A program made the position numbers and the translations under genes. Under the pieces are notes generated by a model. That model ran no database searches. It had not been told where the DNA came from and saw nothing but the letters and a program-made list of their open reading frames with translations. From positions 1 to 64,000 of the forward strand of contig CAUJHQ010000130.1 in NCBI GenBank assembly GCA_963204815.1: a stretch of DNA of 64,000 nucleotides, written 5' to 3'. This DNA comes from Pseudomonadota bacterium. GTDB taxonomy: Bacteria > Pseudomonadota > Gammaproteobacteria > Burkholderiales > Burkholderiaceae_C. Of this stretch, positions 1,904 to 6,282 are shown in pieces; position 1 is the first letter of the stretch; the number at the start of each line of letters is the position of its first letter.

Positions 1904-3610
1904 ATGGCCACCATGCTCGACCGCGAGATCCACCTGTGCAAGGCGCTGGTGATCGACGGCAATGCCACCTCGCGCAGCATCCTGGTGGCGCAGATGCGCG
2001 ACTTCGGCATCGGCAATGTGGCCCAGTGCGGGCGCGTGGCCGACGCCCGCACGCTGCTCGAGCGCAACAGCTTCGACATCGTGCTGTGCGAGCAGAGCTT
2101 CAGCGGCACCGACTACTCCGGCCAGCAACTGCTCGACGACCTGCGCCGTGCCCAGTTGCTGCCGCTGTCGACCGTGTTCGTGATGATCACCGGCGAGGCG
2201 TCCTACGCGAAGGTCACCGAAGCGGCCGAATCGGCGCTCGACAGCTACCTCGTCAAGCCGCACACCGCCAGTTCGCTGGGCGACCGCATCGCCCACGCGC
2301 GGCGCCGCAAGCGCGTGCTGAAGGACATCTTCGAGGCGGTGGACGCCGGCCGCTTCGACGCCGCCGCGACGCTCTGCGTCGCCCGCTTCGAGGCGCGCGC
2401 CGAGTTCTGGCTGTTCGCCGCGCGCATCGGCTCCGAGCTGCTGCTGACGCAAGGCCGCCATGCCGAGGCGAAGGCGCTCTTCGAAGGCGTGCTGGCGGCA
2501 CAGCCGGCACCGTGGGCGAGGCTGGGCATCGCGCGCGCGCAGATGGCCGCGAACGAGAATGCCGCCGCTTCGCGCACGCTGGAGGCGCTGCTCGCCGAAC
2601 AACCCTCGTACGTCGACGCACACGACGTGCTCGGCCGGCTGCGCTTCGAGCAGGGTCAGCACGAGGCCGCGATCGAGGCCTGCCGCACGGCCACGGCGCT
2701 GACGCCGGGATCGGTCGGCCGGCTGCAGAAGCTGGGGCTGCTGGCGTTCCTCTTCGGCGACCCCCAGGAGGCTGCGCGCGTGCTCGACCGCAGCGTGTCG
2801 CTGGGCGTGGGCTCGAAGATGTTCGACCCGCTGACGCTGGTGCTGCTGGCCCTGCTGCGCTACCGGCAGCAGGACACGAAGGGCGTGCAGCGCTGCACGG
2901 AGAATCTCGCGCACGCGCTTGCCCGCAGCGAGGGGGCGCCGCGCCTGAAGCGGCTCTCGCGCTGCGCCGAGGTGCTGAACCTGCTGCTGCTGCAGCGCAC
3001 CGACGAGGTGCCGCCGCTGATGGCCGAACTGGGCGCCGAAGTGGCCGACGAAGGATTCGACCTCGAGGCCGCCTGCTGCCTGCTGCTGCTGCTGGCGCAA
3101 CTGGCCGCGGCGGCCGTCAGCGTCGAAGGGGCCGAAGGCTGGGTCGACGCGGTCGGGCTGCGCTACTGCAGCTCGAAGGCACACACCGAGCTGCTGGCCA
3201 CGACGGCCGCGCTGCACGCGCCGTATGCCGAGCGCGTGCGGCAGTGCCCGCACCGCATCACGCAGATCGCCGAGCAGGCAATGGCGCACACGCTGGCCGG
3301 CGACCCGGGTGCCGCGGTGCGCGGCCTGATCGAACAGGGGCAGCACACGCTCAACGGCAAGCTGCTCGACAACGCCCGCCACCTGCTGCAGCGCCACCAG
3401 GAGCGCATCGCCGACGCACATGCGCTGCTCGCCGAGGCCGACGCGCTGCGCGCGCGCTTCTGGACGCGCAACGTCCGCCTGCCGATGGCCGACGGCGCCC
3501 GTGCCGCCGGCGGCATCACGCTGCGCACCTCGGTCGACATCGTGCGCGAGCCGTCGCCCGCCGCGGTCGACCCGGTCGACCCGGTCGAGATCGACGGCGT
3601 CACCGGCTAG
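1904..3610 (+). CDS. Receiver-like domain protein with TPR repeats
   Basis: About 568 residues: an N-terminal response-regulator receiver fold (about 10-130) followed by a long alpha-helical region with TPR-like repeats (about 145-290) and further helices to the C terminus. No DNA-binding or enzymatic output domain is visible, so it probably works by protein-protein contacts. The receiver is degenerate: the normal phosphoacceptor Asp is Glu63 (IVLCEQSF), only one of the paired acidic residues remains (Asp18 in VIDGN), while Thr96 and Lys118 (LVKP) are kept. I chose ATG 1904 because the G-run at 1891-1896 is well spaced from it; GTG 1898 is an alternative. The partner kinase and pathway are unknown. 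The gene ends in a CTAG shared with the convergent radical SAM gene. Confidence 0.85.
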   Translation: MATMLDREIHLCKALVIDGNATSRSILVAQMRDFGIGNVAQCGRVADARTLLERNSFDIVLCEQSFSGTDYSGQQLLDDLRRAQLLPLSTVFVMITGEASYAKVTEAAESALDSYLVKPHTASSLGDRIAHARRRKRVLKDIFEAVDAGRFDAAATLCVARFEARAEFWLFAARIGSELLLTQGRHAEAKALFEGVLAAQPAPWARLGIARAQMAANENAAASRTLEALLAEQPSYVDAHDVLGRLRFEQGQHEAAIEACRTATALTPGSVGRLQKLGLLAFLFGDPQEAARVLDRSVSLGVGSKMFDPLTLVLLALLRYRQQDTKGVQRCTENLAHALARSEGAPRLKRLSRCAEVLNLLLLQRTDEVPPLMAELGAEVADEGFDLEAACCLLLLLAQLAAAAVSVEGAEGWVDAVGLRYCSSKAHTELLATTAALHAPYAERVRQCPHRITQIAEQAMAHTLAGDPGAAVRGLIEQGQHTLNGKLLDNARHLLQRHQERIADAHALLAEADALRARFWTRNVRLPMADGARAAGGITLRTSVDIVREPSPAAVDPVDPVEIDGVTG

Positions 3611-4737
3611 AAGAGCGTGCCCTGCAGCGCCGCGCCCGGCGCGGCCGGCGGGCGAAAGCGCGTGAGGTCGAGTTCGACGCGCTCGCGCCGGTAGCCCAGC
3701 CGCGCACAGGCCTTGTCGAAACGCTGGCGCAGCAGTTCGGCCCAGGGGCCTTCACCGCGCATGCGCTTGCCGAAGCGGGCGTCGTTGTCCTTGCCGCCGC
3801 GCATGTCGCGCACGCGGGCCATCACGCGCGCCGCGCGGTCGGGAAAGTGGTCCTGCAGCCACTGCTGGAAGATCGGGTTCACCTCCCAGGGCAGCCGCAG
3901 CACGATGCTGAAGGCGCGGCTCGCGCCGGCCTCGCGCGCCGCTTCGAGCACACGCTCGAGTTCGGGTTCGTTGATGAACGGGATCACCGGCGACACGCTC
4001 ACGCCCACCGGCACGCCGACCTTCGCGAGCGCCTCGATCGTGCGCAGTCGCCGATGCGGCGCCGTCGCGCGTGGTTCGAGCACGCGGGCGAGCGCCGGGT
4101 CCAGTGTCGTGATCGACACGTAGACCGCGGCCAGCTGGTCGGCCGCCATCGGGGCGATGAGATCGAGGTCGCGCTCCACCAGGCTGGACTTGGTGATGAG
4201 CGAGAACGGGTGCCGCGCCTCGGCCAGCACCTCGATCACCTGGCGCGTGATGCGCAGGCGGCGCTCCACCGGCTGGTAGGCATCGGTCACGGAACCGATG
4301 TTCAGCAGCAGCGGCTGGTAGCCACGCGCGCGCAGCGCCTCGCGCAGGCGTTCGGCGGCGTTGACCTTGGCGACGATGCGGGTCTCGAAGTCGAGGCCGG
4401 GCGAGAGGTTCAGGTAGCTGTGCGTGGGCCGCGCATAGCAGTAGACGCAGCCGTGTTCGCAGCCGCGGTACGGGTTGATCGACAGGTCGAAGCCGATGTC
4501 GGGTGAGTCGTTGCCGGTGAGGATGCTCTTCACCCGCTCTTCGAGCACTTGCGTCTCGGGCGCGGCTTGCTCTTCGAGCGCGGCCTGTTCCAGCGTGCCC
4601 CAGCCGTCGTCGAAACCGGCGCGCTCCTGTGCGGCGAAGCGGTGCTCGATCGCCCAGACCGTGCCACGCCCCTTGAGCGCGGTGGCCGGCGCGTACATCA
4701 GCGTGGCGGCGGGGTCGGGGTTGGGGGCGCTCGGCAT
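3607..4737 (-). CDS. PA0069-family radical SAM protein (SplB-like), probably SOS-controlled
   Basis: A 376-residue radical SAM enzyme. The cluster motif is Cys93-x3-Cys97-x2-Cys100 within RGCEHGCVYCYAR, which would bind the [4Fe-4S] cluster that cleaves S-adenosylmethionine. The spacing and downstream sequence place it in the COG1533 group, which also holds spore photoproduct lyase; the substrate of the PA0069 branch is not known to me. The start is ATG 4737, just after a CTGT-N8-ACAG LexA-type operator. No Shine-Dalgarno sequence can fit between the operator and the ATG, and the predicted transcription start is the A of the ATG, so the mRNA may be leaderless. ATG 4698 (Met14) is an alternative. 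The operator suggests a DNA-damage role; this is inference. Confidence 0.9.
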   Translation of the reverse strand: MPSAPNPDPAATLMYAPATALKGRGTVWAIEHRFAAQERAGFDDGWGTLEQAALEEQAAPETQVLEERVKSILTGNDSPDIGFDLSINPYRGCEHGCVYCYARPTHSYLNLSPGLDFETRIVAKVNAAERLREALRARGYQPLLLNIGSVTDAYQPVERRLRITRQVIEVLAEARHPFSLITKSSLVERDLDLIAPMAADQLAAVYVSITTLDPALARVLEPRATAPHRRLRTIEALAKVGVPVGVSVSPVIPFINEPELERVLEAAREAGASRAFSIVLRLPWEVNPIFQQWLQDHFPDRAARVMARVRDMRGGKDNDARFGKRMRGEGPWAELLRQRFDKACARLGYRRERVELDLTRFRPPAAPGAALQGTLF

Positions 4738-4772
4738 ACTGTAAATATATACAGTTCGCCCGGCGCCCGCAA
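4738..4772 (-). promoter_or_regulatory. LexA (SOS) box and overlapping promoter of the radical SAM gene
   Basis: Positions 4739-4754 read, on the minus strand, CTGTATATATTTACAG, an exact CTGT-N8-ACAG with an all-A/T core as in the gammaproteobacterial LexA consensus. A sigma70-like promoter overlaps it: -35 TTGCGG (4772-4767), a 17-bp spacer and -10 TATATT (4749-4744). The -10 lies inside the operator, so LexA would occlude RNA polymerase. The predicted +1 (six bases after the -10) is 4737, the A of the start codon. Confidence 0.8.
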
Positions 4773-4778
4773 GCCGGA

Positions 4779-6185
4779 TCAGTAGTCGGACGAAGCGCCC
4801 GGCGCCAGGTTGTCGAAGCGCGTGAACGGCTTCAGGAAGGTCAGCTTCACGGTGCCCACCGGGCCATTGCGCTGCTTGGCGATGATGATCTCCGTGACGC
4901 CCGGCTCCTTGCTGGCTTCCTTGTTGTAGTAGTCGTCGCGGTAGATGAACATGATGATGTCGGCGTCCTGCTCGATCGCGCCCGACTCGCGAAGGTCGCT
5001 CATCATCGGCCGCTTGTCGTTGCGGGTCTCGACGCTGCGGTTCAGCTGCGAGAGCGCGATGACCGGACACTGCAGTTCCTTGGCCAGCGCCTTCAGGCCG
5101 CGCGAGATCTCGCCCAGCTCGGTGGCGCGGTTCTCGTCGCCGCTGGACGAGCCGCTCATCAGCTGCAGGTAGTCGATGACGATCAGCCCCAGCTGCCCGT
5201 ACTGCCGCGCCATGCGGCGCGCCCGCGCGCGCAGTTCGGCGGCGGTGAGGCCGGGGGTCTCGTCGATGTACAGCCGCGCCAGCTTGAGGCGGTCGACGGC
5301 CTCGGCCAGGCGGCCCCACTCGTCGTCCGTCAGGCGGCCGGTGCGCAGGTGCGTCTGGTCGATGCGGCCGAGCGAGCCCACCAGGCGCAGCGCCAGCTGC
5401 GAGGCGCCCATTTCCATCGAGAACACCAGCACCGGCAGCTCTTCCTTCACCGCCACGTTCTCGGCGATGTTGAGCGCGAAGGCGGTCTTGCCCATCGAAG
5501 GGCGCGCCGCCAGCACGATGAGGTCGCCCTTCTGCAGGCCGGCGGTGTCGCGGTCGAGGTCGTAGAAGCCGGTGCGCACGCCGGTCACGTCCTCGGCGCC
5601 GTTGTCGTGCAGTTCGTTGACGCGGTCCAGCAGGTCGACGACGAGCCTGTCGATGCCCTGGAAGCCCTGCTTCTGGCGCGAGCCTTCCTCGCCGATCTGG
5701 AAGATCCGGCCCTCGGCCTCATCGAGGATCTGGCTCACCGCCCGGCCCTGCGGGTTGAAGGCGTGGGTGGCGATCTCGTCGCTGGCGGCGATCAGCTTGC
5801 GCAGGATGGCGCGCTCGCGCACGATCTCGGCATAACGGCGGATGTTGGCGGCACTCGGCACACTCTGTGCCAGCGCGTTCAGGTAGGTCAGGCCACCGCA
5901 GTCGTCGGCCTTGCCCAGGCTCTGCAGCTGTTCGAAGACGGTGATGACGTCGGCCGGCTTGCTGTTGTTCACCAGGCCGGCGACGGCGGCGAAGATGTGC
6001 CGGTGCTCGTGGCGGTAGAAGTCGCTCTCGGTGAGCAGGTCGCCGGCGCGGTCCCAGGCCAGGTTGTCCAGCAGCAGGCCGCCGAGCACGCTCTGCTCGG
6101 CTTCGACGGAATGCGGCGGCACGCGCAGGCGCGCCACGTCGTCGTCACGGGGCGCCTTGTCGCGCGAATCGAAGAGGGCTGACAT
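4779..6185 (-). CDS. dnaB: Replicative DNA helicase DnaB
   Basis: A 468-residue hexameric replication-fork helicase. The N-terminal domain (about 20-150, beginning near PPHSVEAEQSVLGG) binds primase. The C-terminal RecA-like motor carries Walker A (RPSMGKTAF) and Walker B (LIVIDYLQLM). The length is normal for the family. Start ATG 6185 has GGAG five bases upstream; an in-frame ATG at 6194 is a weaker choice. It lies downstream of the ribosomal protein genes rpsF-priB-rpsR-rplI on the same strand, with a terminator-like hairpin in between. This arrangement with priB and rplI is common in betaproteobacteria. The radical SAM gene follows 41 bp beyond its stop. Confidence 0.98.
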   Translation of the reverse strand: MSALFDSRDKAPRDDDVARLRVPPHSVEAEQSVLGGLLLDNLAWDRAGDLLTESDFYRHEHRHIFAAVAGLVNNSKPADVITVFEQLQSLGKADDCGGLTYLNALAQSVPSAANIRRYAEIVRERAILRKLIAASDEIATHAFNPQGRAVSQILDEAEGRIFQIGEEGSRQKQGFQGIDRLVVDLLDRVNELHDNGAEDVTGVRTGFYDLDRDTAGLQKGDLIVLAARPSMGKTAFALNIAENVAVKEELPVLVFSMEMGASQLALRLVGSLGRIDQTHLRTGRLTDDEWGRLAEAVDRLKLARLYIDETPGLTAAELRARARRMARQYGQLGLIVIDYLQLMSGSSSGDENRATELGEISRGLKALAKELQCPVIALSQLNRSVETRNDKRPMMSDLRESGAIEQDADIIMFIYRDDYYNKEASKEPGVTEIIIAKQRNGPVGTVKLTFLKPFTRFDNLAPGASSDY

Positions 6186-6282
6186 GGGCTCCATCATCCG
6201 CCGAAAGGCGGGCTGCGGCTGTGGGCAAGCCTGTGCACAAGCTCTGGGGCTTGTGGGGAGAAGCGTGACCACCGGAAACGAC

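Follow-up and report, generated by a model that had tools for sequence, protein, structure and literature searches.

We analysed a stretch of 64,000 nucleotides (positions 1 to 64,000, forward strand, of contig CAUJHQ010000130.1, assembly GCA_963204815.1; hereafter the window) from a Pseudomonadota bacterium of the family Burkholderiaceae_C, and in it a minus-strand gene for a radical S-adenosylmethionine (SAM) protein of the PA0069 family. An exact LexA operator stands one nucleotide before the start codon of this gene. Judging from its orthologues, this operator is probably part of a LexA-controlled, leaderless (or nearly leaderless) promoter. The product ends in a conserved tail that resembles a peptide for the beta sliding clamp. 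Most likely it would be an SOS-induced, clamp-tethered DNA repair enzyme like spore photoproduct lyase (SPL), and we rate this clamp and DNA-repair part below the promoter claim. That the gene family belongs to the SOS regulon is already known; the promoter architecture and the clamp-type tail appear to be new.

Operator, promoter and start codon

The elements at the start of the gene are the following. Orthologues in which a LexA box stands 1 nt (in some counts 1 or 2 nt) before an in-frame ATG are called fused.

3610..4737, minus strand: PA0069-family radical SAM gene, 376 aa (NF033668, 467.7 bits), with its stop codon just below 3610
4737-4735, minus strand: ATG start codon, its A being the predicted +1; a single T (4738) separates it from the operator
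4754-4739, minus strand: LexA operator CTGTATATATTTACAG, exact CTGT-N8-ACAG (8/8), 1 nt upstream of the start codon
4749-4744 (-12 to -7 from the A of the ATG), minus strand: predicted -10 element TATATT, inside the operator
4772-4767 (-35 to -30), minus strand: predicted -35 element TTGCGG; its TTG at -35 to -33 is the block seen in aligned fused orthologues

An earlier note on this DNA, made from the letters alone, had placed the box, the -10, the -35 and the +1 at these positions, and all of them proved exact when the sequence was checked. The spacer between the -35 and the -10 is 17 nt, and TATATT is followed by six nucleotides and then by the ATG. The box alone was rejected as proof: the exact CTGTN8ACAG has one copy in the window for 0.47 expected, and 35/100 window shuffles contain at least one. 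Since a single exact box is within chance, its significance was taken from conservation among orthologues.

Orthologues were matched in 70/150 genomes of the order and in 143/200 of the family. Left out were eight of the 70 order genomes, in which the gene was fragmentary, split or interrupted by a stop, and 52 of the 143 family genomes, which scored lower and one of which had a stop in frame; the 92 own-family loci are therefore weighted towards closer relatives. The upstream DNA of 151 loci was read; 147 were anchored on the conserved KGRG motif and 4 had no anchor. A set of named species comprised 80 loci, of which 74 were anchored and 6 had no KGRG; four of its loci duplicate loci of the 151-locus set, none of them fused. 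A box was counted from 7/8 matches, or from 6/8 when fused.

In 55/147 orthologues of the order, precisely one nucleotide separates a box (6/8 or better) from an in-frame ATG downstream. The own family (n=92) contributes 49 loci fused at 1 nt and 3 at 2 nt, with the box elsewhere in 35 and no box in 5. For the other families of the order (n=55) the corresponding numbers are 6, 3, 12 and 34. Nine of the 74 named-species loci are fused, among them those of Azohydromonas australica, Rhizobacter, Roseateles and Rubrivivax, 40 have the box elsewhere and 25 have none. Any box at all is thus present at 87/92 own-family and 49/74 named-species loci, but at only 21/55 in the rest of the order, and the exact box was found at 7/7 of the Pseudomonas loci fetched. 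Close relatives without the box, which the earlier note named as a refuting case, did not turn up: the only congener found to carry the gene (G342, locus L032) has both the box and the 1-nt spacing, and congener G243 gave no match to the gene. The pattern CTGTN8ACAGNATG occurs 97 times in 100 family genomes, versus 8 for the reversed pattern. Sorted to genes by hand and then checked, 26 of these sites are in frame at the radical SAM gene, one (G158) precedes the gene but has its ATG in another frame, 5 come from reading boxes near the gene on the opposite strand, 15 have an AT-rich spacer and lie elsewhere, and 50 have a GC-richer spacer.

In a quick protein tree (130 rows), 33/38 rows of the main clade are fused with a 1-nt gap and one row with a 2-nt gap. 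None of the 14 rows of the neighbouring clade of Variovorax, Hydrogenophaga, Polaromonas and Curvibacter is fused, nor any of the 19 rows of the Burkholderia-Massilia-Herbaspirillum group. Fused rows recur elsewhere on the tree, with 11 changes in all, 6 of them forced by starred branches. One main-clade row (L053) was scored 'no box' because its contig stops there; a second contig of that genome holds the matching start, and this start is fused.

Several features of the fused genes argue for transcription starting at the ATG itself. The distance from the ATG to KGRG ranges from 7 to 44 codons among them, yet the gap between box and ATG is constant at one base. The abutting ATG is the sole possible start codon in 18/55 fused orthologues, and codon-position GC (guanine plus cytosine) content is coding-like immediately after it, by a crude test. 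When the 55 fused genes are aligned on the ATG, positions -35 to -33 (T31 T25 G38) form the sole conserved block between -60 and -23. TTG stands at -35 in 14/56 genes of the main clade and at any other position in at most 4; 1000 shuffles reach 6 at most. Within the operator spacer, the combination T-12 A-11 T-7 occurs in 40/64 fused versus 2/87 non-fused boxes (2/84 without duplicates), or, per distinct box, in 16/31 versus 2/65. Read on the other strand it occurs in 0 fused boxes and 1 non-fused box. These three positions are the core of a sigma-70 -10 element and fit a +1 on the first base of the ATG. Non-fused orthologues showed no -35 block at the corresponding distance from the box, so their promoters would differ. 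The leaderless promoter proposed in the earlier note is thus well supported by comparison of sequences, through the fixed spacing, the -35 block and the asymmetric -10 signature.

Several points weigh against this reading. A consensus promoter scan called no promoter at the site, because TTGCGG has only 3/6 consensus bases. The Fisher values and the shuffles take no account of relatedness among the loci, and the support of the main clade in the Shimodaira-Hasegawa-like approximate likelihood ratio test (SH-aLRT) is 93 only, unstarred. Eight fused loci, set apart by hand, fall outside the main clade; of these, 3 have the full T-12/A-11/T-7, 5 have T-7 and 2 have TTG at -35. The box sits elsewhere in 35/92 own-family orthologues, so LexA control can do without a fused start. 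Finally, a strict Shine-Dalgarno sequence is mostly absent from non-fused orthologues too, and was found at the most-upstream start of only 12/46 roughly called window genes; its absence before a fused ATG is therefore weak evidence. We dropped it as proof for this low baseline, for the likeness of the non-fused genes and because the box fills the site by construction.

The gene directly upstream bears on where the transcript begins.

4779..6200, minus strand: dnaB replicative helicase (PF03796 and PF00772); 6200 is the edge of the scanned stretch and not a determined start

LexA might act there as an operator only, as a roadblock to a transcript that comes from a distal promoter or by read-through from dnaB and that would carry a leader without a Shine-Dalgarno sequence. 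The dnaB stop codon (4781-4779) is separated from the radical SAM ATG by a gap of 41 nt on the same strand, no terminator-like site was found on the minus strand in a scan of 4600-5000, and the exact box by itself does not exceed chance. The earlier note did not mention this neighbourhood. A dnaB C-terminal motif was detected just upstream in 37/70 fused (1 or 2 nt) versus 0/151 other orthologues. The other 33/70 are fused with no dnaB detected upstream, which means that the fusion cannot be put down to this neighbour. Such a roadblock would also give no reason for the TTG being the sole conserved block from -60 to -23, nor for a -10 signature that marks fused boxes on the sense strand, and we regard it as improbable. 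A true start downstream at Met14, with the box inside an ordinary 5' leader, is scarcely credible: Met14 does exist 40 nt after the box and start lengths differ among orthologues, but 18/55 fused orthologues have no other start codon, L032, L033 and L035 have the same residues before Met14 (AATL) but encode them with synonymous codon changes, and the codon-type GC pattern runs from the ATG onward.

The predicted LexA regulon in this genome and its relatives

A lexA gene is present in the genome, with two 7/8 sites just upstream (CTGGATAAAAATACAG and CTGGACAAAACCACAG), and recA carries a 7/8 site, CTGTACAAATATCCAG, plus an AGGAGG leader. The possibility raised in the earlier note of a genome with no lexA, or with another LexA consensus, was not realised. 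The genome (4.58 Mb) holds 7 exact boxes versus 4 for the reversed pattern. One exact box, CTGTACATACATACAG, lies 26 nt upstream of an integron integrase gene (locus L063, 750-2003 on contig C103; NF011946, 493.5 bits versus a cut-off of 435). Another, CTGTATGGACGTACAG, is at 37341-37356 on contig C7 (locus L061), upstream of an open reading frame (ORF) that resembles the imuA of an imuA-imuB-dnaE2 cassette.

Other arrangements were noticed in the relatives. At L205 (G186) the box is fused to the ATG of an error-prone DNA polymerase gene (dnaE2-like), as CTGTATAAAAACACAG-T-ATG. Small ORFs begin directly after LexA-like boxes in G177 (the paralogous L194 and L195, beginning MKVAVLRLRKDGMKLA) and in G246 (L202, beginning MRVVVHLRRHDGAYRPSYG); pieces of the L194 and L202 ORFs had no match in NCBIfam. 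Upstream of the radical SAM gene, L013, L017 and L028 carry CTGG-N8-CCAG versions of the box, still 1 nt from the ATG in L017 and L028, a hint that the LexA motif may have drifted in part of the relatives. At L006, L024, L102, L111, L123 and L128 the box ends 7-8 nt before the in-frame ATG. A TACAGT-like right arm could possibly serve as -10 in these six loci, which would be a second near-leaderless register.

The SOS operator proposed for the window gene is supported by the conservation of the box and the presence of lexA, and LexA control of the gene family was already published. In the available portion of PMC3323433, splB is predicted to be a member of the LexA regulon in alpha- and beta-proteobacteria and its product is called a photolyase. 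LexA control is also predicted in Bacteroidetes (PMC8565304, available portion) and operon links to ImuB-C are noted (PMC3765255, available portion). The gene of that published splB regulon is of the same COG1533 type; the box is CTGT-N8-ACAG here and GTTC-N7-GTTC, that of alphaproteobacteria, in other loci. We found the latter box at 27/30 phylum-search loci and at 9/74 anchored named-species loci. The portions of PMC3323433 and PMC8565304 at hand mention neither a box-ATG fusion nor a clamp motif, and the word 'leaderless' has 0 occurrences in PMC3323433. Nothing on the regulation of this gene was found in the available portions of PMC5435343, PMC12796719 and PMC8407119. No report of the operator-promoter-start fusion or of the tail came up in a literature search of partly available texts, with most subscription journals outside its reach. 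No paper treating PA0069 and LexA together was found in the literature searched, and the listing of PA0069 in LexA regulons given in the earlier note found no confirmation there.

The radical SAM enzyme and its C-terminal tail

The window protein scores 467.7 bits against NF033668 (rSAM_PA0069, NCBIfam; cut-off 360), which places it in the PA0069 family, and a profile search matched it to Radical_SAM (PF04055). The CxxxCxxC cysteines C93, C97 and C100 are invariant in 46/46 aligned family sequences. Together with a predicted fold closest to that of SPL, this agrees with the SplB-like radical SAM enzyme of unknown substrate described in the earlier note, which had not pointed out the C-terminal peptide.

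3610..3624, minus strand: QGTLF codons (Q372-F376), beta-clamp-type motif; Q372 and L375 invariant in 46/46

The motif Q-x-x-[LM]-[FLIW] is found within the last 16 residues of 163/169 closed orthologous ORFs (56/59, 30/30 and 77/80 in three sets), and 144/164 motifs terminate at the last residue. The six orthologues without it (L007, L009, L017, L266, L289, L314) include lost or changed tails. The bacterial beta-clamp peptide has the consensus QL[SD]LF, usually with L or M at position 2. Sequences of the form Q[LM]xL[FL] are present in 28/30 phylum-search loci and 41/80 named-species loci, and QLSLF or QLSLL in 12/30 phylum-search loci; QLDLF is found in Paraburkholderia, QMALF or QMSLL in several Pseudomonas and QGTLF in the window protein. 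The linker ahead of the tail varies in length and sequence, with the Q and the L fixed in 46/46. As the last block of the predicted structure has a predicted local distance difference test (pLDDT) value of 56, the peptide appears to lie on a flexible terminus. From sequence and predicted structure, the tail therefore resembles a beta-sliding-clamp peptide. Pol II, UmuC and DinB are beta-clamp-binding SOS polymerases with a short peptide of the Q-x-x-L-F type. Here a like peptide is carried by a putative SOS-induced DNA enzyme of another class, whose binding to the clamp is predicted.

Some observations tell against a clamp ligand. QGTLF has G at position 2, without the usual L or M. That none of 244 other open frames of at least 120 codons in the window carries the same tail motif speaks for the tail, but as a null this set is crude, most of these frames not being genes. 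DNA is proposed as the substrate on the grounds of the SPL-like fold and SOS control only. The tail could instead be a structural or partner-binding element of an enzyme that modifies a non-DNA substrate; the G is in favour of this, and so are the many substrates of radical SAM enzymes and the fold matches, which also include peptide- and RNA-modifying enzymes. We judge it unlikely, though deserving of serious attention, as tails such as QLSLF, QLDLF, QMSLF and QLSLL occur commonly beyond the own clade and the linker is variable versus an invariant Q and L. SOS control via different LexA motifs also points to DNA repair (PMC3323433, available portion). No paper was found that brings together 'clamp-binding motif' and 'radical SAM', again with most subscription journals outside the search.

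The likeness to SPL does not extend to the sequence. PDB sequence searches with the protein or with profiles returned no SPL, which only the fold search found. The window protein has no match to TIGR04070 even at E 0.01. Matches were obtained for 19/46 family members, with a best E of 4.8e-06, and L312 scores 18.9 bits versus a cut-off of 400. Only three cysteines are invariant in the 46 sequences, those of CxxxCxxC. SPL has a hydrogen-donor cysteine (C140 of PDB titles), which is thus left without an invariant counterpart. Compared with SPL (TIGR04070; PDB 4FHC, 4FHF, 4K9R), the window protein is below the cut-off and lacks an invariant fourth cysteine, and the PA0069 family has a conserved C-terminal Q-x-x-L-F tail. 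On these sequence measures, the profile cut-off and the donor cysteine, membership in SPL fails. The PA0069 family occurs in genera that are not known as spore-formers. A true SPL performing photoreactivation under SOS control, as named in the available portion of PMC3323433, is in our view very improbable, given these TIGR04070 and cysteine results and the description of the spore photoproduct as exclusive to UV-irradiated spores (PMC4929162, available portion). The next-best curated family is Rv2578c (NF038135), to which the window protein scores 212.6 bits versus a cut-off of 430 and which all 46/46 aligned sequences match. No paper treating Rv2578c and LexA together was found in the literature searched. 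As for an anti-phage role, PADLOC gave no match.

A parallel exists in archaea. According to the available portion of PMC4929162, archaeal NreB is encoded next to a SplB-like gene, and a SplB-like protein is there likewise linked to a possible sliding-clamp (PIP) motif. That motif is less clear-cut and lies on the separate neighbour NreB, whereas here it is on the SplB-like protein itself. Crosslink repair was speculated for the archaeal pair in the same portion of that paper.

A model for an SOS-induced enzyme at the replication fork

In the model that we favour, the LexA operator is simultaneously the core of the gene's own promoter, with the -10 in the operator spacer and the -35 17 bp upstream, and transcription would begin at the A of the ATG. 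On the operator, LexA would cover the -10 and keep the promoter shut. Upon DNA damage, RecA-stimulated cleavage of LexA would open it, and the mRNA would be translated as a leaderless message. The Q-x-x-L-F tail may then dock the radical SAM enzyme on the beta sliding clamp, and its radical chemistry may repair a DNA lesion at or behind replication forks.

In a wider and more tentative reading, to which we give somewhat less than even credence, the window gene belongs to a widespread proteobacterial family of SOS-induced, clamp-tethered radical SAM repair enzymes, distinct from SPL and acting on an unknown lesion (perhaps crosslinks) at the fork. One betaproteobacterial clade would have merged operator, -10 and start codon into about 20 bp, giving a leaderless, LexA-switched message from a gene that frequently neighbours dnaB, and comparable fusions would occur in other parts of the tree.

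For a family of enzymes whose substrate is unknown, this would provide two handles: the timing of its production (SOS, leaderless) and its place of action (the sliding clamp). In the fusion of operator, promoter and start codon, proteobacteria would offer a clear natural example of a leaderless message under LexA. Should the tail bind beta, this would be a radical SAM enzyme brought to replication forks, and its lesion could be sought by direct experiment.
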